From: Clostridia bacterium
GTDB taxonomy: Bacteria > Bacillota > Clostridia > Peptostreptococcales > Acidaminobacteraceae
Length of the DNA stretch: 64,000 nucleotides
Direction of reading: 5' to 3'
Assembly: GCA_014859095.1 (NCBI GenBank)
Contig: JACUUV010000001.1
Coordinates: 62,001 to 126,000, forward strand
Shown one piece after another: positions 26,363-32,631 of this stretch. The notes beneath the pieces are model-generated. The model saw only the letters and a list, made by a program, of their open reading frames with translations. It was not told the origin of the DNA and did no database searches. The position numbers and the translations under genes were made by a program. How positions within the stretch are numbered: position 1 is the first letter of the stretch; each line of letters opens with the position of its first letter.

Positions 26363-27790
26363 TCACATTTTTTTGAGCAAATCATCAAAGATTTCTTCAG
26401 AAATATTGGGGTCTGCTTTGCCACTTGTCTCTTTCATCATCAAACCTAGGTAGGCACTTTTGGCTTTGATCTTACCCGATTTATAGTCCTCCACAATTTT
26501 GGGATTCGAATCCAGTAATTGAATTGCCATTTTTGTGAGTGCATCCACTGAAGTAATCGGCCACAAATCGTGAATTTCTATGATTTGAGTCGGCATTTCA
26601 CCAGATTTCATCATAAATTCAAAGACTTTCTTCGCAATCCCCGAGTTGATTTTTCCGGAATCGAGAAGATGGATCAATTCAATCATTTGTTCCACGTTGA
26701 TTTCAAGGCTTGAATCATCGATGACGACATTGGTGATCAAATTGCCGAAGAGTTCGGCATTTGACACCTTACCAATGGTCTCCATAGTGAAATCTGCAAC
26801 ATTTTTGTTTGAGATGATTTGTTCGGCCAATGAGTATTTTAGACCGAATTTTTTTGTCAAAATGTTCAAGTACTCATCGGGAAGCATTGGCATATCGTCG
26901 TTGATACGGTCAACTTCATGTTGATCAAGAATCACAGGCATCAAGTCCGGATCAGGAAAATATCTGTAATCATGTGCATCTTCCTTGGACCTCATAGCAA
27001 ATGAGGCTTTCTTGGCGGGGTCCCACCTTCTTGTTTCTTGAGTGATCGTTCCACCTTTTTCCAGCACATCGATTTGTCTCTTCATCTCTACTTCAATTGC
27101 TTTGGTGACAAAGGCGAATGAGTTCAGATTTTTCATCTCTGTCCTGGTTCCAAGTGTCTGAACGCCTTTTTTTCTGACCGAAAGATTGACGTCGCACCTA
27201 AAAGCACCTTCATTCATCTTTCCGGTCGTGATTCCAAGATAAATGACAATCGCCCGCAATTTTTGTAGAAAGGATTTTACTTCATCCGCCGACCTCATAT
27301 CAGGTTCCGATACAATCTCAATCAGAGGCACTCCACATCTGTTATAGTCAATCAAGGTGCCTTTTGTGTCGTCATGAATCAACTTTCCCGCATCTTCTTC
27401 CATATGAATTCTCGTGATTCCGATTCGTTTTAAACCTTCGCCACTTAATACGTCCAAATGGCCATTGATCGCAATTGGATCACTGTTTTGTGAAATTTGA
27501 AAAGCTTTGGGCGAATCGGGATAAAAATAGTTTTTCCTGTCCATCTGGCTGTAAAGATTGATTTCGCAGTTTGTGGCCAGTCCAGCTTTTATGGCATATT
27601 CCACTACGCTGTCATTCAGGACCGGCAAAGTTCCCGGAAGTCCCATGCACACCGGGCAACAATCCGTGTTGGGTTCACCACCAAATGCAGTACTGCAGCC
27701 ACAGAATATTTTGGAAGCTGTGCTCAGTTCTACATGGACTTCAACGCCTATCACAGATTCATACTCATCATAAATGCTGATTTTCTTCAT
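26363..27790 (-). CDS. gatB: Asp-tRNA(Asn)/Glu-tRNA(Gln) amidotransferase subunit B
   Basis: GatB binds the mischarged tRNA and activates its Asp/Glu. Features in order: IGVEVHVELSTASKIFCGC (zinc Cys pair with TDCCPVCMGLPG), NYFYPDSPKAFQISQ, GITRIHMEEDAGKLIHD, YNRCGVPLIEIVSEPD, RCDVNLSVR and the tail YqeY-like domain. At 475 residues it is full length. The start overlaps the gatA stop by four bases (ATGA type). Confidence 0.96.
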   Translation of the reverse strand: MKKISIYDEYESVIGVEVHVELSTASKIFCGCSTAFGGEPNTDCCPVCMGLPGTLPVLNDSVVEYAIKAGLATNCEINLYSQMDRKNYFYPDSPKAFQISQNSDPIAINGHLDVLSGEGLKRIGITRIHMEEDAGKLIHDDTKGTLIDYNRCGVPLIEIVSEPDMRSADEVKSFLQKLRAIVIYLGITTGKMNEGAFRCDVNLSVRKKGVQTLGTRTEMKNLNSFAFVTKAIEVEMKRQIDVLEKGGTITQETRRWDPAKKASFAMRSKEDAHDYRYFPDPDLMPVILDQHEVDRINDDMPMLPDEYLNILTKKFGLKYSLAEQIISNKNVADFTMETIGKVSNAELFGNLITNVVIDDSSLEINVEQMIELIHLLDSGKINSGIAKKVFEFMMKSGEMPTQIIEIHDLWPITSVDALTKMAIQLLDSNPKIVEDYKSGKIKAKSAYLGLMMKETSGKADPNISEEIFDDLLKKM

Positions 27791-29244
27791 AACACGACCT
27801 CCTTTTTAGCAAATTCCTTTTCGAATGCCAGCCCAAGCGACAAAATCACTTTCTCTGAAAACGCCTTACCTATGAGTTGCATTCCTATGGGCATCTCATC
27901 ATCATCGAATCCGCAGTTTGTGCTGAGTGCGGGTAAACCGGCAATGTTGACCGGCACTGTATAGATGTCTCCAAGGTACATCTCGACTGGATTTTTGGAG
28001 TGCTCACCGAACTTGTATGCTGTTGTCGGTGCAACTGGAGTCAAAATCACATCAAAGCTTTCGAACAATTTGTCAAACGTTTCCTTGACCATTTGTCTTG
28101 CTCTTAAAGCATTCAGATAATACGCGTCATAATAGCCTGAGCTCAAAGCATAGGTACCGAGTAGAATACGACGTTTGACTTCGGTTCCGAATCCGAATCC
28201 CCTTGATTGGTTATATAAACTTCCTATGCTGTCAAATCCACTGTGACGATAGCCATACTGGATGCCATCAAATTTCGCCAGATTGGATGATGCTTCAGCT
28301 GATGAGAGGAGATAATAGGCCGGCAAAGCATATTCCATGTTTTCAATTTCCACAGGTTCAACTGTGACCCCTATGGACTCAAAGGTTTTTGCAGCCTCTA
28401 AAACAGCATCTTTCACCTCTTTTTGAATGCCTTCCCTTAAATAGTTCATCGGCAATGCAACTCTTAGCTTTTCAATGTTTTCACCAATGAGGGCATCTTT
28501 ATTCTCAACCATCCTTTCAGAACTGGTGCTGTCCATCGGATCATGCCCAGCCAAAGCGGTATAGACAAAGGCGAGGTCTTCGACATTTTTCGCAATAGGT
28601 CCAATTTGATCAAGCGATGAGGCAAATGCGATCAAACCGCTCCTTGATATCGTGCCATATGTGGGTTTCAATCCAGATACCCCACAAAAAGCAGCGGGTT
28701 GTCTTATCGATCCACCTGTATCCGATCCGAGTGTGTATGCCGCCTCAAAAGCTGCTACAGCAGCCGCAGGACCTCCCGAACTTCCACCCGGAACTCTGCC
28801 CATATCCACTGGGTTTCTGGTTTTTTTGAAGTAAGATGTCTCGGTTGAAGCGCCCATGGCGAATTCATCCATATTCAGTTTGCCCAGAATGATGGCATCG
28901 TTTGCTCTCAATTTTTTTACGACGTGCGCATCAAATGGCGACATATAGCCTTCAAGCATTTTTGAAGCGCATGTCGTCGGCATATCTGAGGTGCAAATGT
29001 TGTCCTTGATAGCCATAGGGATTCCCGAAATGGGTGACAAGATTTGTTTTTTTTGTCTTTTCAAATCAATTGCAATCGCTCTTTCTATCGCCAATACCGG
29101 GTCAAAATGCAAATAGGCTCCGATGCTGTCATCTAGCTTCTCTATTTGGTCAACAAAGGCTCTCGTCAATTCCTCACTGGAAATCTCACTGGCACAGAGT
29201 TTTTTTGATAATTCACCTATGGACTCATAAATCAATGCTTTCAT
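27787..29244 (-). CDS. gatA: Asp-tRNA(Asn)/Glu-tRNA(Gln) amidotransferase subunit A
   Basis: GatA is the glutaminase that supplies ammonia. The amidase signature is clear: PMAIKDNICT (catalytic Lys), GRVPGGSSGGPAAAVAAFEAAYTLGSDTGGSIRQPAAFCG with the cis-Ser and nucleophile Ser of the Ser-cisSer-Lys triad. 485 residues, full length. It overlaps the aspS-gatC fusion upstream and gatB downstream by four bases each, so all three are translationally coupled. Confidence 0.96.
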   Translation of the reverse strand: MKALIYESIGELSKKLCASEISSEELTRAFVDQIEKLDDSIGAYLHFDPVLAIERAIAIDLKRQKKQILSPISGIPMAIKDNICTSDMPTTCASKMLEGYMSPFDAHVVKKLRANDAIILGKLNMDEFAMGASTETSYFKKTRNPVDMGRVPGGSSGGPAAAVAAFEAAYTLGSDTGGSIRQPAAFCGVSGLKPTYGTISRSGLIAFASSLDQIGPIAKNVEDLAFVYTALAGHDPMDSTSSERMVENKDALIGENIEKLRVALPMNYLREGIQKEVKDAVLEAAKTFESIGVTVEPVEIENMEYALPAYYLLSSAEASSNLAKFDGIQYGYRHSGFDSIGSLYNQSRGFGFGTEVKRRILLGTYALSSGYYDAYYLNALRARQMVKETFDKLFESFDVILTPVAPTTAYKFGEHSKNPVEMYLGDIYTVPVNIAGLPALSTNCGFDDDEMPIGMQLIGKAFSEKVILSLGLAFEKEFAKKEVVL

Positions 29245-31331
29245 GACTTTTCACCTTCCTTTTCCACTGTTCTTGGCACATGAATATAATTTTCTATTTT
29301 AGATGGTGCGTTCTTCAGCAGAGACTCGACATCCGTAGACTTGACCCACTTGTCTTTTCTTCTGGAGTGGGTCCCGGTCACCACATGTGTCAGCGGTTCA
29401 TAACCGCTAAGGTCCAAACCGTTCAATTGGTCGGCGAACGCTATGATGTCCGCTAAATCCCTCGAAAAGGATTTGCGTTCTTTTTCTGTAAGTTCAATCC
29501 GTGCCAGGTTCGCCACATAATCAATACGTTCCAAAGACTCTTTTTCAACCTTCGGCGATTCCTGTGTTTGAGTCATCAATCCGATGGAAAGCTCTTCAAG
29601 TTGCTCAGGGTCTACCTCTGATGGTGAGTCTGTCATCGCACAGGAACCGTCACGCATTTTTGGAAAAGGTATGACCTCTCGAATACTGGCTGATCCGGAG
29701 AGCAACATCAAAAGTCGATCGAGGCCAAAAGCGAAACCGCCATGAGGGGGTACGCCATATTCGAATGCATCCATCAGAAATCCAAATCGCGCATCGATGA
29801 TGACCTGAGTCATTCCTAGAGCTTCAAACATCTTTTGTTGAATTTTGGGGTTGTGTATTCTTATGCTTCCACTGCCGAGTTCCACACCGTTCAGTACTAT
29901 ATCATATGCCTTTGCCCTCATCTCGAGAGGTGCGTCTGTGAACTTGTCAATATCTTCCTCCACTGGCATTGTAAATGGATGATGCATGGCAACCAATCGT
30001 TTGGAAGTGGTGTCGTATTCAAACAACGGGAACTCAGTGACCACCACAAAGGCAAATTTGTCTTTGGGTCTCAGATCGAGCATGTCGCCGACATCAAGCC
30101 TCAAGTTGCCAAGTACAGATTGCGCTTTTTGAGCGGGTTCAGCACAAAATACTATGAGATCCCCATTTTGTGCATCTGCAGTCTTGATCAACTCCTCCAT
30201 TTGTTCATCAGTAAAATATTTGGTCAAAACCGATTTGAGTTGTCCGTCAGTTCCAATAGCGATCCAAGCCATACCACTTCCACCATGTTCAAATGCTCTC
30301 TTGGTCAGATAATCGATCTGTGAACGGGTGATCTCATCTCCACCCTTTATTGTGAGGGCTTTCACTACAGCTCCATTTGCTATGGCTTTTGTGAAGATTC
30401 CAAACTCGCTTTGTGCCACGATTTTTGTCAAATCGACAATTGGCATCTCAAATCTAAGGTCGGGCTTGTCCGTTCCATAGAGAGTCATGGCTTCTTTATA
30501 GGTCAATCTCTTGAATGGTTGATCGATTATGATCTGGTGTGATTCTTTGAGCAAATCTTTAAAGAGCTGCTCAAGAAGGCTAATGACATCCTCATCGTCA
30601 ACAAAAGAGAGTTCCATGTCAACTTGTGTGAATTCAGGCTGCCGATCCGCCCTGAGGTCCTCATCCCGGAAACATTTTGCGACTTGAAAATATTTGTCAA
30701 TCCCGCCTACCATCAAAAGTTGTTTGTAAATTTGAGGGGATTGTGGCAATGCATAGAATTTTTCCTTTTTGATTCGACTTGGAACCAGAAAATCCCTTGC
30801 GCCTTCCGGAGTGCTTTTGGTAAGTATGGGAGTTTCCATTTCAAGGAAGCCTTTATTTAAAAGACTGGTCCTGATGGCTTGGGTGACCTTTTGTCTCATC
30901 TTTAGGTTTTCAAGGACTTTAGGGTTACGCATGTCCAAATATCTATATTTTAGCCTGAGATCTTCTCTGACGTTCATGGATTCTTCAATTCCGAATGGTG
31001 TATTTTTGGATTCTGAGTAAATCACGAGCGAACTTGCTCTCACATCGATATCTCCGGTCGGAATGCTGAGGTTGATTGTATCAGGACTTCTCTTTTCGAC
31101 AATCCCTTTGACTGCGATGACGTATTCATTTCTAAATTTCTCAGCGAGTATGAAATCATGCGCGCTCAATTTTGAAGCGTCGATCACCACTTGACAGATG
31201 CCTTCACGATCACGAAGATCAATGAAAATAACACCTCCCAAATCTCGTCTTCTTTGAACCCAACCCATGATGACGACTTCCTTCTCTAATTCATCTTTGG
31301 TCAACAGACCACAATAATGTGTTCGTTTCAT
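29241..31331 (-). CDS. aspS: Aspartyl-tRNA synthetase fused to GatC
   Basis: Residues 1 to about 585 are a bacterial-type class II AspRS: OB-fold anticodon domain (VIMGWVQRRRDLGGVIFIDLRD), motif 2 region (FRDEDLRADRQPEFTQVDMELSF), GAD insertion, and motif 3 (GGFAFGLDRLLMLL) near 540. Residues of about 600-690 are a complete GatC: ERIDYVANLARIELTEKE, DIIAFADQLNGLD, EPLTHV, and a final LLKNAPSKIENYIHVPRTVE. There is no separate gatC and no strong RBS before the internal Met586. AspRS charges tRNA(Asn) as well as tRNA(Asp) when non-discriminating, and GatCAB then amidates it. RBS GGGGAGG precedes ATG 31331, behind a T-box. Confidence 0.95.
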   Translation of the reverse strand: MKRTHYCGLLTKDELEKEVVIMGWVQRRRDLGGVIFIDLRDREGICQVVIDASKLSAHDFILAEKFRNEYVIAVKGIVEKRSPDTINLSIPTGDIDVRASSLVIYSESKNTPFGIEESMNVREDLRLKYRYLDMRNPKVLENLKMRQKVTQAIRTSLLNKGFLEMETPILTKSTPEGARDFLVPSRIKKEKFYALPQSPQIYKQLLMVGGIDKYFQVAKCFRDEDLRADRQPEFTQVDMELSFVDDEDVISLLEQLFKDLLKESHQIIIDQPFKRLTYKEAMTLYGTDKPDLRFEMPIVDLTKIVAQSEFGIFTKAIANGAVVKALTIKGGDEITRSQIDYLTKRAFEHGGSGMAWIAIGTDGQLKSVLTKYFTDEQMEELIKTADAQNGDLIVFCAEPAQKAQSVLGNLRLDVGDMLDLRPKDKFAFVVVTEFPLFEYDTTSKRLVAMHHPFTMPVEEDIDKFTDAPLEMRAKAYDIVLNGVELGSGSIRIHNPKIQQKMFEALGMTQVIIDARFGFLMDAFEYGVPPHGGFAFGLDRLLMLLSGSASIREVIPFPKMRDGSCAMTDSPSEVDPEQLEELSIGLMTQTQESPKVEKESLERIDYVANLARIELTEKERKSFSRDLADIIAFADQLNGLDLSGYEPLTHVVTGTHSRRKDKWVKSTDVESLLKNAPSKIENYIHVPRTVEKEGEKS

Positions 31332-31353: not shown

Positions 31354-31636
31354 CAATAAAAAAAGCTCTCATCCCTATATATAATAGGGACGAAAGCTTA
31401 TGTTCCGCGGTACCACCCAGTTTGATCCTAAGATCCACTTTGAATCGATACGGACAATGAAATTGTCGATATCTACTGGCTGTAACGTGCCAGACACGTC
31501 TAATCCTACTCACTTTCGCTTCGGTTAGCAACTCGGAGATGTTTTTCATCTTTAACTCTGTACCAATCTTCCACCGTCATTGGCTCGCTGTAACTTTGTA
31601 CCAGATTACTCTTCTCTTCATCGTCTTTTGTTATTG
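31354..31636 (-). promoter_or_regulatory. T-box riboswitch upstream of aspS-gatC
   Basis: On the minus strand, the T-box core GGGTGGTACCGCGG (31405-31418) can pair with an uncharged tRNA 3' end. It is followed by a long terminator stem (AAGCTTTCGTCCCTAT / TATAGGGATGAGAGCTT) and seven Ts (31354-31401). Stem I lies at about 31625-31535, with the distal loop GCCAAT...GGTGGAAG...ATTGG and an AGUA/GAA pair bordering a specifier loop. The likely specifier triplet is AAC (Asn), read from GAAAAACATCTCC; this is by eye and AAA or GAA cannot be excluded. Confidence 0.92.
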
Positions 31637-31642
31637 TTCTCG

Positions 31643-31671
31643 ATTATAGACGTCATTTGGACGTCTGTCAA
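31643..31671 (-). promoter_or_regulatory. Consensus promoter of the aspS-gatC-gatA-gatB operon
   Basis: TTGACA (31666-31671), 17 bases, TATAAT (31643-31648), minus strand: a perfect sigma-A promoter. The spacer contains the inverted repeat AGACGTC-CAAAT-GACGTCT. The -35 box begins three bases after the DUF2156 stop codon. Confidence 0.92.
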
Positions 31672-31674
31672 GCC

Positions 31675-32631
31675 CTATTTGAAAATTATTTCAAATTTTT
31701 CCACAAACCTAGCCGGATGATAGGACATTTTGGATTTCCTGAGTCCTTCAATTCCAAGGTCTTGCTCTCTGTTGATCCACAGAAGCGCATCGTTATAGGC
31801 CATACTATAAAATTCGTAACCAAGCATTTGATAAATACCAGGAAAATCAGCGTTTGCCTTCTCGACATGAATCAGCAACATATTTCCAGATACGATTTCG
31901 CCGAGTATGAACCCTTGAAGCTCTTCCTCGATAAACAAAAGTCCCATCAATAGATGGTCCACTGAAGATTTTTCCAAATATTGCATAACACCGTCAAATT
32001 CGTACTGCAAGTTGCTGTCGTTATCGCAATCCCGTTCCACACACCATTTTTCCATCAATTGCTTGACCAGTTCGAAATCGTTGGATTCATAAGGTCTGAA
32101 ATAATAGTTTTCAACAGTTTTAATAAACTTGTTCACTTGATTTTTTTTCTTGTGGTATTTGTTGCCCGCAAGTGTTCTCATAGGCTCATAATCGTAAATA
32201 TAATCAGATTCATCCCTGCTTGAGATCACTTCGATTTCAAAATCACTTGTTTGCTCCAAAAGCTTTACGAAGGCTTCACTCGACTTTTTGATCACCAGTG
32301 GGATTCCACATGTTTCTAAAGTTTTTTTCAAAGATTTTAACACTTCACACACTCGACCGCCATCATCATAAGCGCCAACGGGACTACTGAAATACATGCG
32401 GTCAGGTTCGATATTCACAATGAAAACATAAGAGTCCATGATAAAAAAGTAAAAGTTGTACTTGTTTGTCCATAGGAGCACATTGGTGAGCGATGTATCG
32501 GAAATTTCACTATCAAACACCTCATAATAAGGTCTGAGCAAAGATTGGCTTAATAGTGTGACCTTGTTCATTTTGAGTATTTGCTTGGCTTGTTCTATCT
32601 GATTTTTTGACAGCCTCATTTTTTCATGCAT
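31675..32631 (-). CDS. DUF2156 (phosphatidylglycerol lysyltransferase C-domain-like) protein
   Basis: The 318 residues match DUF2156, a tandem GNAT-type fold (first half about 1-150, second about 165-318). Seen are LSQSLLRPYYEVFDSEISDTSLTNVLLWTNKYN, RTLAGNKYHKKKNQVNKF, LQGFILGEI and DLGIEGLRKSKMSYHPARFVEKF. MprF-type enzymes carry the same fold and transfer aminoacyl groups from tRNA to lipid, but this soluble form has no membrane part and its substrate is unknown. It overlaps the M24 peptidase gene by eight bases. Confidence 0.9.
   Translation of the reverse strand: MHEKMRLSKNQIEQAKQILKMNKVTLLSQSLLRPYYEVFDSEISDTSLTNVLLWTNKYNFYFFIMDSYVFIVNIEPDRMYFSSPVGAYDDGGRVCEVLKSLKKTLETCGIPLVIKKSSEAFVKLLEQTSDFEIEVISSRDESDYIYDYEPMRTLAGNKYHKKKNQVNKFIKTVENYYFRPYESNDFELVKQLMEKWCVERDCDNDSNLQYEFDGVMQYLEKSSVDHLLMGLLFIEEELQGFILGEIVSGNMLLIHVEKANADFPGIYQMLGYEFYSMAYNDALLWINREQDLGIEGLRKSKMSYHPARFVEKFEIIFK

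Follow-up and report, generated by a model that had tools for sequence, protein, structure and literature searches.

A T-box leader that probably reads asparagine precedes an AspRS-GatC transamidation operon in a Clostridia bacterium

The window analysed here, a stretch of 64 kb (64,000 nucleotides) from the genome of a Clostridia bacterium, carries a T-box leader ahead of an operon of aspS-gatC, gatA and gatB. Very probably this leader is a transcriptional riboswitch for uncharged tRNA-Asn, which it would recognize by an AAC codon and by which it would drive the three genes. Since its specifier loop, GAAAAACA, and its UGGU bulge are identical to those of T-boxes ahead of asnS and asnA in related genomes, we consider a T-box for tRNA-Asn alone to be the best reading. 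As a T-box it is of an ordinary type; what makes it valuable are the single-base differences that nature provides between its relatives.

In the mechanism we envisage, the anticodon GUU of uncharged tRNA-Asn would pair with the AAC of Stem I, while the GCCA end of the tRNA would pair with the UGGU bulge, its discriminator base entering a G-U wobble. The tRNA paired in this way would stabilize the antiterminator and allow RNA polymerase to read through; with charged tRNA-Asn, the terminator would form. More AspRS-GatC, GatA and GatB would then be made, the AspRS part of the fusion misacylating tRNA-Asn to Asp-tRNA(Asn), which would subsequently be amidated to Asn-tRNA(Asn). The fusion of the two proteins may also serve to channel the product.

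Results and Discussion

The leader and its operon

The leader lies on the minus strand, where the Rfam T-box model (RF00230) matches it from end to end at 31630-31383 (model positions 1-219 of 219), covering Stem I, Stem II, IIA/B, Stem III and the antiterminator. The match scores 116.5 bits against a gathering score of 93 (E-value 4.2e-25), and no other Rfam match in the window reaches gathering level. The 5' side of the specifier loop, AGAGTA (31607-31612), forms the S-turn strand, whose AGTA recurs in 25 of 25 aligned relatives. On the 3' side, the Rfam alignment and the sequence delimit the eight bases GAAAAACA (31547-31540), with AAC at 31543-31541 and the basal strand TCTC directly following. 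In addition to scoring above the curated cut-off, the leader thus has the AGUA/GAA specifier loop of T-boxes and, within it, a codon that matches its genes. The antiterminator bulge region, GGGTGGTACCGCG (31418-31406, minus strand), includes TGGT (31412-31415; UGGU in the RNA), a UGGN bulge predicted from the Rfam alignment and the sequence to pair with the NCCA 3' end of the tRNA. Further downstream, folding and sequence reveal an intrinsic terminator at 31399-31363, a hairpin of 16 pairs followed by a T run (-24.3 kcal/mol, z -7.4; none of 200 shuffles was equally stable). Because the antiterminator's 3' strand lies within the 5' strand of the terminator, only one of the two structures can form at a time. 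The first-pass annotation had described a clear T-box core and terminator at 31354-31636, an interval that indeed spans both, and had located AAC on the 3' side of Stem I just before the basal stem, exactly where we find it.

Upstream, a putative promoter at 31671-31643 (minus strand) combines TTGACA (31671-31666), a 17-base spacer and TATAAT (31648-31643), agreeing with the consensus in 12 of 12 positions. Its spacer (31648-31672, minus strand) harbors an inverted repeat, AGACGTC-CAAAT-GACGTCT; as this repeat is imperfect in a second genome of the genus (G502, locus L262), it is probably not an operator. Directly upstream of the promoter, a gene with an LPG_synthase_C domain (PF09924) occupies 31675-32631 of the minus strand, and a similar reading frame apparently precedes the T-box of G502 (L262) as well, as judged from DNA likeness only.

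The first gene of the operon, at 29241-31331 of the minus strand, encodes a protein of 696 residues in which a bacterial-type AspRS with a GAD domain is followed by a C-terminal GatC (PF00152, PF02938, PF01336, PF02686; NF001750, TIGR00135). It is followed, on the same strand, by gatA (27787-29244; TIGR00132, 588.9 bits) and gatB (26363-27790; NF004012, 580.5 bits), which, with one PF02934 match in the genome, is its only GatB gene. GatC, GatA and GatB, as needed for tRNA-dependent asparagine synthesis, are thus encoded together. The aspS-gat operon that had been proposed for this locus therefore holds with regard to gatA and gatB, but it contains no separate aspS, this gene being the AspRS-GatC fusion.

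The genome also encodes a separate housekeeping AspRS (L051), an AsnRS (L054), a GlnRS (L057) and a GluRS (L058). With AsnRS and GlnRS present, neither Asn-tRNA nor Gln-tRNA depends on GatCAB, and the operon must be seen as a regulated second route. The earlier proposal that tRNA-Asn controls indirect Asn-tRNA synthesis is accordingly to be narrowed: the Asn reading on which it builds appears well founded in the sequence, but the route so controlled is not the sole source of Asn-tRNA. The distribution of the fusion is patchy, as seen from a genome of the same genus (G073, 96% completeness) that has the housekeeping AspRS only. Two relatives, G112 and G117, possess three AspRS genes each, including an archaeal-type AspRS (L336 and L309; PRK05159, above cut-off in both) with an upstream T-box of its own.

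The codon frame

The T-box database TBDB takes as first-choice specifier the three bases 2-4 from the end of the specifier bulge (as given in the excerpted text of PMC7778990), and this slot holds AAC in the window T-box. We calibrated it on the 19 further T-boxes that this genome contains, taking their loops from Rfam alignments and naming the downstream genes from their sequences. In 16 of them, the expected codon stood at loop positions 5-7 (pheS UUC, metG AUG, leuS CUC, serS UCC, leuA CUC, ileS AUC, valS GUC, cysK UGC, argS AGA, alaS GCA, trpB UGG, glyS GGC, cysS UGC, ilvH-ilvC CUC, tyrS UAC and lysS AAG). The ACU codon of the thrS T-box fits only one base further 5', and the remaining two, ahead of an amino-acid ABC transporter and argG, do not fit (L013:1501-1739 and L016:1501-1737, contigs C46 and C92). 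In these two, Stem I lacks the AGUA/GAA S-turn and has UGAGAACUUUUUC beside a seven-pair basal helix; the covariance frame yields AAC, yet AGA (Arg) suits the genes. This speaks against the Asn reading of the window in so far as the alignment can put AAC into the slot of T-boxes whose genes require an Arg codon. Taken by itself, a covariance alignment can thus mislead, but here it does so only with an atypical Stem I, and that of the window is typical.

Ten other genomes provided a background, in which the expected codon occupied the slot in 28 of 34 confidently parsed, gene-labelled T-boxes and the frame was shifted in six. This set derives from 99 regions (59 + 40) out of 157 T-box matches. 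Of these regions, 46 were dropped for a score below 23 or the lack of a core; among the 53 parsed, 19 could not be assigned a gene at ≥50% identity. The helices flanking the specifier loop yield further evidence. In 25 of the 26 T-boxes that we found on fusion genes (see below), 93.6% of the helix cells were paired, compared to 35-47% with the partner strand slid, and we counted 46 two-sided changes, compared to 14.1 in shuffles (L103, whose core fell outside the search pattern, was left out). This covariation fixes the edges of the loop and thereby the codon frame. The alignment to the covariance model, which the first-pass annotation had named as a check, places AAC and not GAC (Asp) in the specifier position.

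Some T-boxes of relatives stand ahead of unusual genes. Four whose loop includes a Gln-like CAA or CAG and whose bulge is UGGC (L293 in G112, L310 in G102, L331 in G155, L332 in G318) lie upstream of a class I synthetase homologue; the product of L331 matches MetRS weakly (NF001100, 207.6 bits, cut-off 587) and NCBIfam yielded no match for that of L293 at 1e-60. Two Phe-type T-boxes (UUC; L313 in G085, L324 in G177) precede phenylacetate-CoA-ligase-like genes, L313 being assigned with TIGR02155 (617 bits, cut-off 646) and L324 solely by resemblance in its opening residues.

T-boxes on AspRS-GatC fusion genes

Searching 118, 391 and 41 genomes (overlapping sets), together with one scan of named genomes, gave us 33 distinct AspRS-GatC fusion loci, including that of the window. 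The scan returned 80 loci, mostly of housekeeping AspRS, with L103 and L104 as the only fusions; L104 equals L187 in its upstream and C-terminal sequence, and the two were counted once. A T-box lies directly upstream of the fusion gene in 26 loci. None was found at the other seven, L073 and L216 from one genus and L184 and L187-L190 from one family, as judged by sequence pattern only for L216 and also by Rfam for the rest. A partial fusion match at a contig edge (G145) was excluded from the T-box count.

AAC occupies the slot in every one of these 26 T-boxes, as placed by Rfam alignment in 12 and by sequence in 14 (the loop of L191 was read from Rfam, those of L193 and L195 by eye). The same loop as in the window, exactly GAAAAACA, also occurs in the T-boxes of asnS (L333 in G085; NF003037, 672 bits) and asnA (L278 in G102; TIGR00669, 340 bits), each with a UGGU bulge. 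Thus, with AAC in the calibrated slot and a loop of the asnS/asnA type, the window leader has the features of an Asn-specific T-box, and the Asn specifier that had been suggested from its sequence is upheld.

The fusion-gene T-boxes differ in the base before AAC. In 23 of the 26 this is a G, creating GAAGAAC, where a Glu codon (GAA) and the Asn codon (AAC) overlap. In the other three, from the window, the same-genus genome G502 and G505, it is an A and the overlapping Glu codon is gone; the window and G502 share the loop GAAAAACA. In a tree of 32 fusion proteins, with housekeeping AspRS as the outgroup, these T-boxes require two G-to-A changes, because G505 groups with G102 and G506, both having G, and the window with G117, G112, G500 and G501, likewise with G (support 80/70 for the latter branch). 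G102 contains both forms of the loop, GAAGAACC on its transamidation operon and GAAAAACA on asnA. It had been noted beforehand that GAA and AAC occur in the window without overlapping as they do in Clostridium acetobutylicum; our comparison agrees and locates the loss of the overlap in the window's genus.

We had at first taken the G that is conserved ahead of AAC for a mark of two-codon T-boxes, but dropped this view, since the lineages with a UGGC bulge keep the G too, as do the pheS T-boxes (five of five labelled cases), in which it creates no second codon of sense. In the background, G precedes the slot in 10 of 22 labelled eight-base non-Asn loops.

The bulge and the discriminator base

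Of the 26 fusion-gene T-boxes, 18 have UGGU as their bulge and eight UGGC, with four changes on the tree, which holds 25 of them. In tRNA-Asn, G73 and A72 were present in all 18 matches (from 13 of 26 genomes searched, the same genus included); in tRNA-Glu, A73 was present in all 15 matches (from 11 of 26 genomes searched, including the window's own, where it lies at C16:13-55 near the contig start). Our tRNA searches found no tRNA-Asn in the assembly of the window, for which G73 is taken from a genome of the same genus. Given these discriminator bases, UGGU can pair with both tRNAs, with Glu through U-A and with Asn through a U-G wobble, whereas UGGC can pair with Asn only. The A72 of the relatives' tRNA-Asn is in line with the U1-A72 pair that is mentioned together with GatCAB in the excerpted text of PMC4206432.

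The wobble is the second point against the Asn reading, as A73 of tRNA-Glu or tRNA-Lys would fit UGGU better than G73 of tRNA-Asn. In the same genome, all 16 other T-boxes whose tRNA is present in the assembly match it with a Watson-Crick pair at the bulge, and the T-box of the window is the exception. However, UGGU is also the bulge of the family's asnS and asnA T-boxes, and G-U-type wobbles are reported by TBDB for 46% of Trp T-boxes (excerpted text of PMC7778990); we therefore take the wobble to be a habit of Asn T-boxes. Because of the same asnS and asnA T-boxes, we also no longer read the U in UGGU as a hint of a second tRNA, tRNA-Glu.

Other readings of the leader

One alternative to our reading is that the leader senses tRNA-Glu in addition to tRNA-Asn, as reported for C. 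acetobutylicum. It would agree with the overlapping codons of most fusion-gene T-boxes, with the Watson-Crick pair that UGGU would form with A73 of the genome's own tRNA-Glu, and with the T-box of this kind that a review describes for the transamidation operon in C. acetobutylicum (excerpted text of PMC4052509). Yet A precedes AAC in the window and in its same-genus relative, and the GAA that remains in the window occupies loop positions 1-3, which belong to the S-turn strand conserved in most T-boxes, whatever their codon. Further, the overlapping GAA persists in G071, G155 and G318 in spite of a UGGC bulge that is unable to pair with A73 of their tRNA-Glu; the overlap therefore does not imply tRNA-Glu sensing there, unless a C-A mismatch is tolerated. 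The G of the pheS T-boxes also weakens the argument from the overlap. Since the overlapping GAA is missing from the window copy, we expect it to respond to tRNA-Asn only and consider sensing of both tRNAs improbable for this leader.

Two further readings would replace Asn altogether. Shifting the frame by one base in the 5' direction gives AAA at loop positions 4-6, which tRNA-Lys(UUU), whose discriminator base is A73, could read while matching UGGU in Watson-Crick fashion. However, the operon has no link to lysine, the base after AAA is C instead of the usual purine, and the identical loop is found ahead of asnS and asnA; moreover, in most relatives this frame holds GAA and thus no Lys codon. 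We regard a lysine reading as very unlikely. An aspartate reading would suit the first gene, an AspRS, and an Asp T-box does exist in the family, ahead of the archaeal-type AspRS of G112 (L336), where the Rfam alignment shows GAC in the codon slot, the loop GAAAGACA and a UGGU bulge. This is the form that an Asp T-box takes in the family, but the window loop contains neither GAC nor GAU, which makes sensing of tRNA-Asp extremely improbable.

The variation among the relatives of our Asn T-box could reflect an evolutionary succession, which we offer tentatively and think rather doubtful. The T-boxes of fusion operons might ancestrally have been sensors of two tRNAs, with GAAC for Glu and Asn; a single G-to-A change before AAC might have made them Asn-only at least twice, in the window's genus and in the lineage of G505, and other lineages might have closed the Glu input at the bulge, through a change from UGGU to UGGC.

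Comparison with known systems

T-box leaders of the RF00230 type mediate tRNA-specific transcription antitermination, and the window leader, with all parts of the model and a competing terminator, shows no structural difference to them. In its 3' loop and UGGU bulge it is the same as the T-boxes of asnS (L333, G085) and asnA (L278, G102), but these control the direct charging of tRNA-Asn or the synthesis of free asparagine, whereas that of the window precedes a transamidation operon. The fusion protein has the domain order of the bifunctional AspRS/GatC family (PRK12820 / NF009460), aligning to model positions 24-719 of 723, yet with 635.1 bits against a curated cut-off of 1379 it falls outside that equivalog.

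Our literature search, which covered few subscription papers, returned nothing that deals with the T-boxes of AspRS-GatC fusion operons or with a loss of overlapping codons, and none of the papers it listed treats, to judge by the listing, a bacterial AspRS-GatC fusion. Within the operon family, nature has varied a single base at the codon overlap (GAAC/AAAC) and a single base at the bulge (U/C) in otherwise similar leaders. Such variants could show whether it is the overlap or the bulge that determines the sensing of one or two tRNAs, and also why genomes with AsnRS retain a regulated second route.

According to the excerpted text of a 2008 survey (PMC2494555), no T-box was found upstream of amidotransferase genes; the work on C. 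acetobutylicum, as cited in the excerpts of PMC4206432 and PMC4052509, later described one on such an operon. This two-codon T-box, which C. acetobutylicum has on its transamidation operon (Saad et al. 2013, via excerpts of PMC4052509, PMC4206432 and PMC7778990), is among the nearest known counterparts of ours. As far as these excerpts describe it, the two have in common a leader on an AspRS/GatCAB operon and an Asn codon, and in both genomes there is an AsnRS and a second AspRS (PMC4206432, PMC4052509). They differ in that the window has AAAC instead of GAAC and therefore no overlapping Glu codon, and in that its AspRS and GatC are fused.
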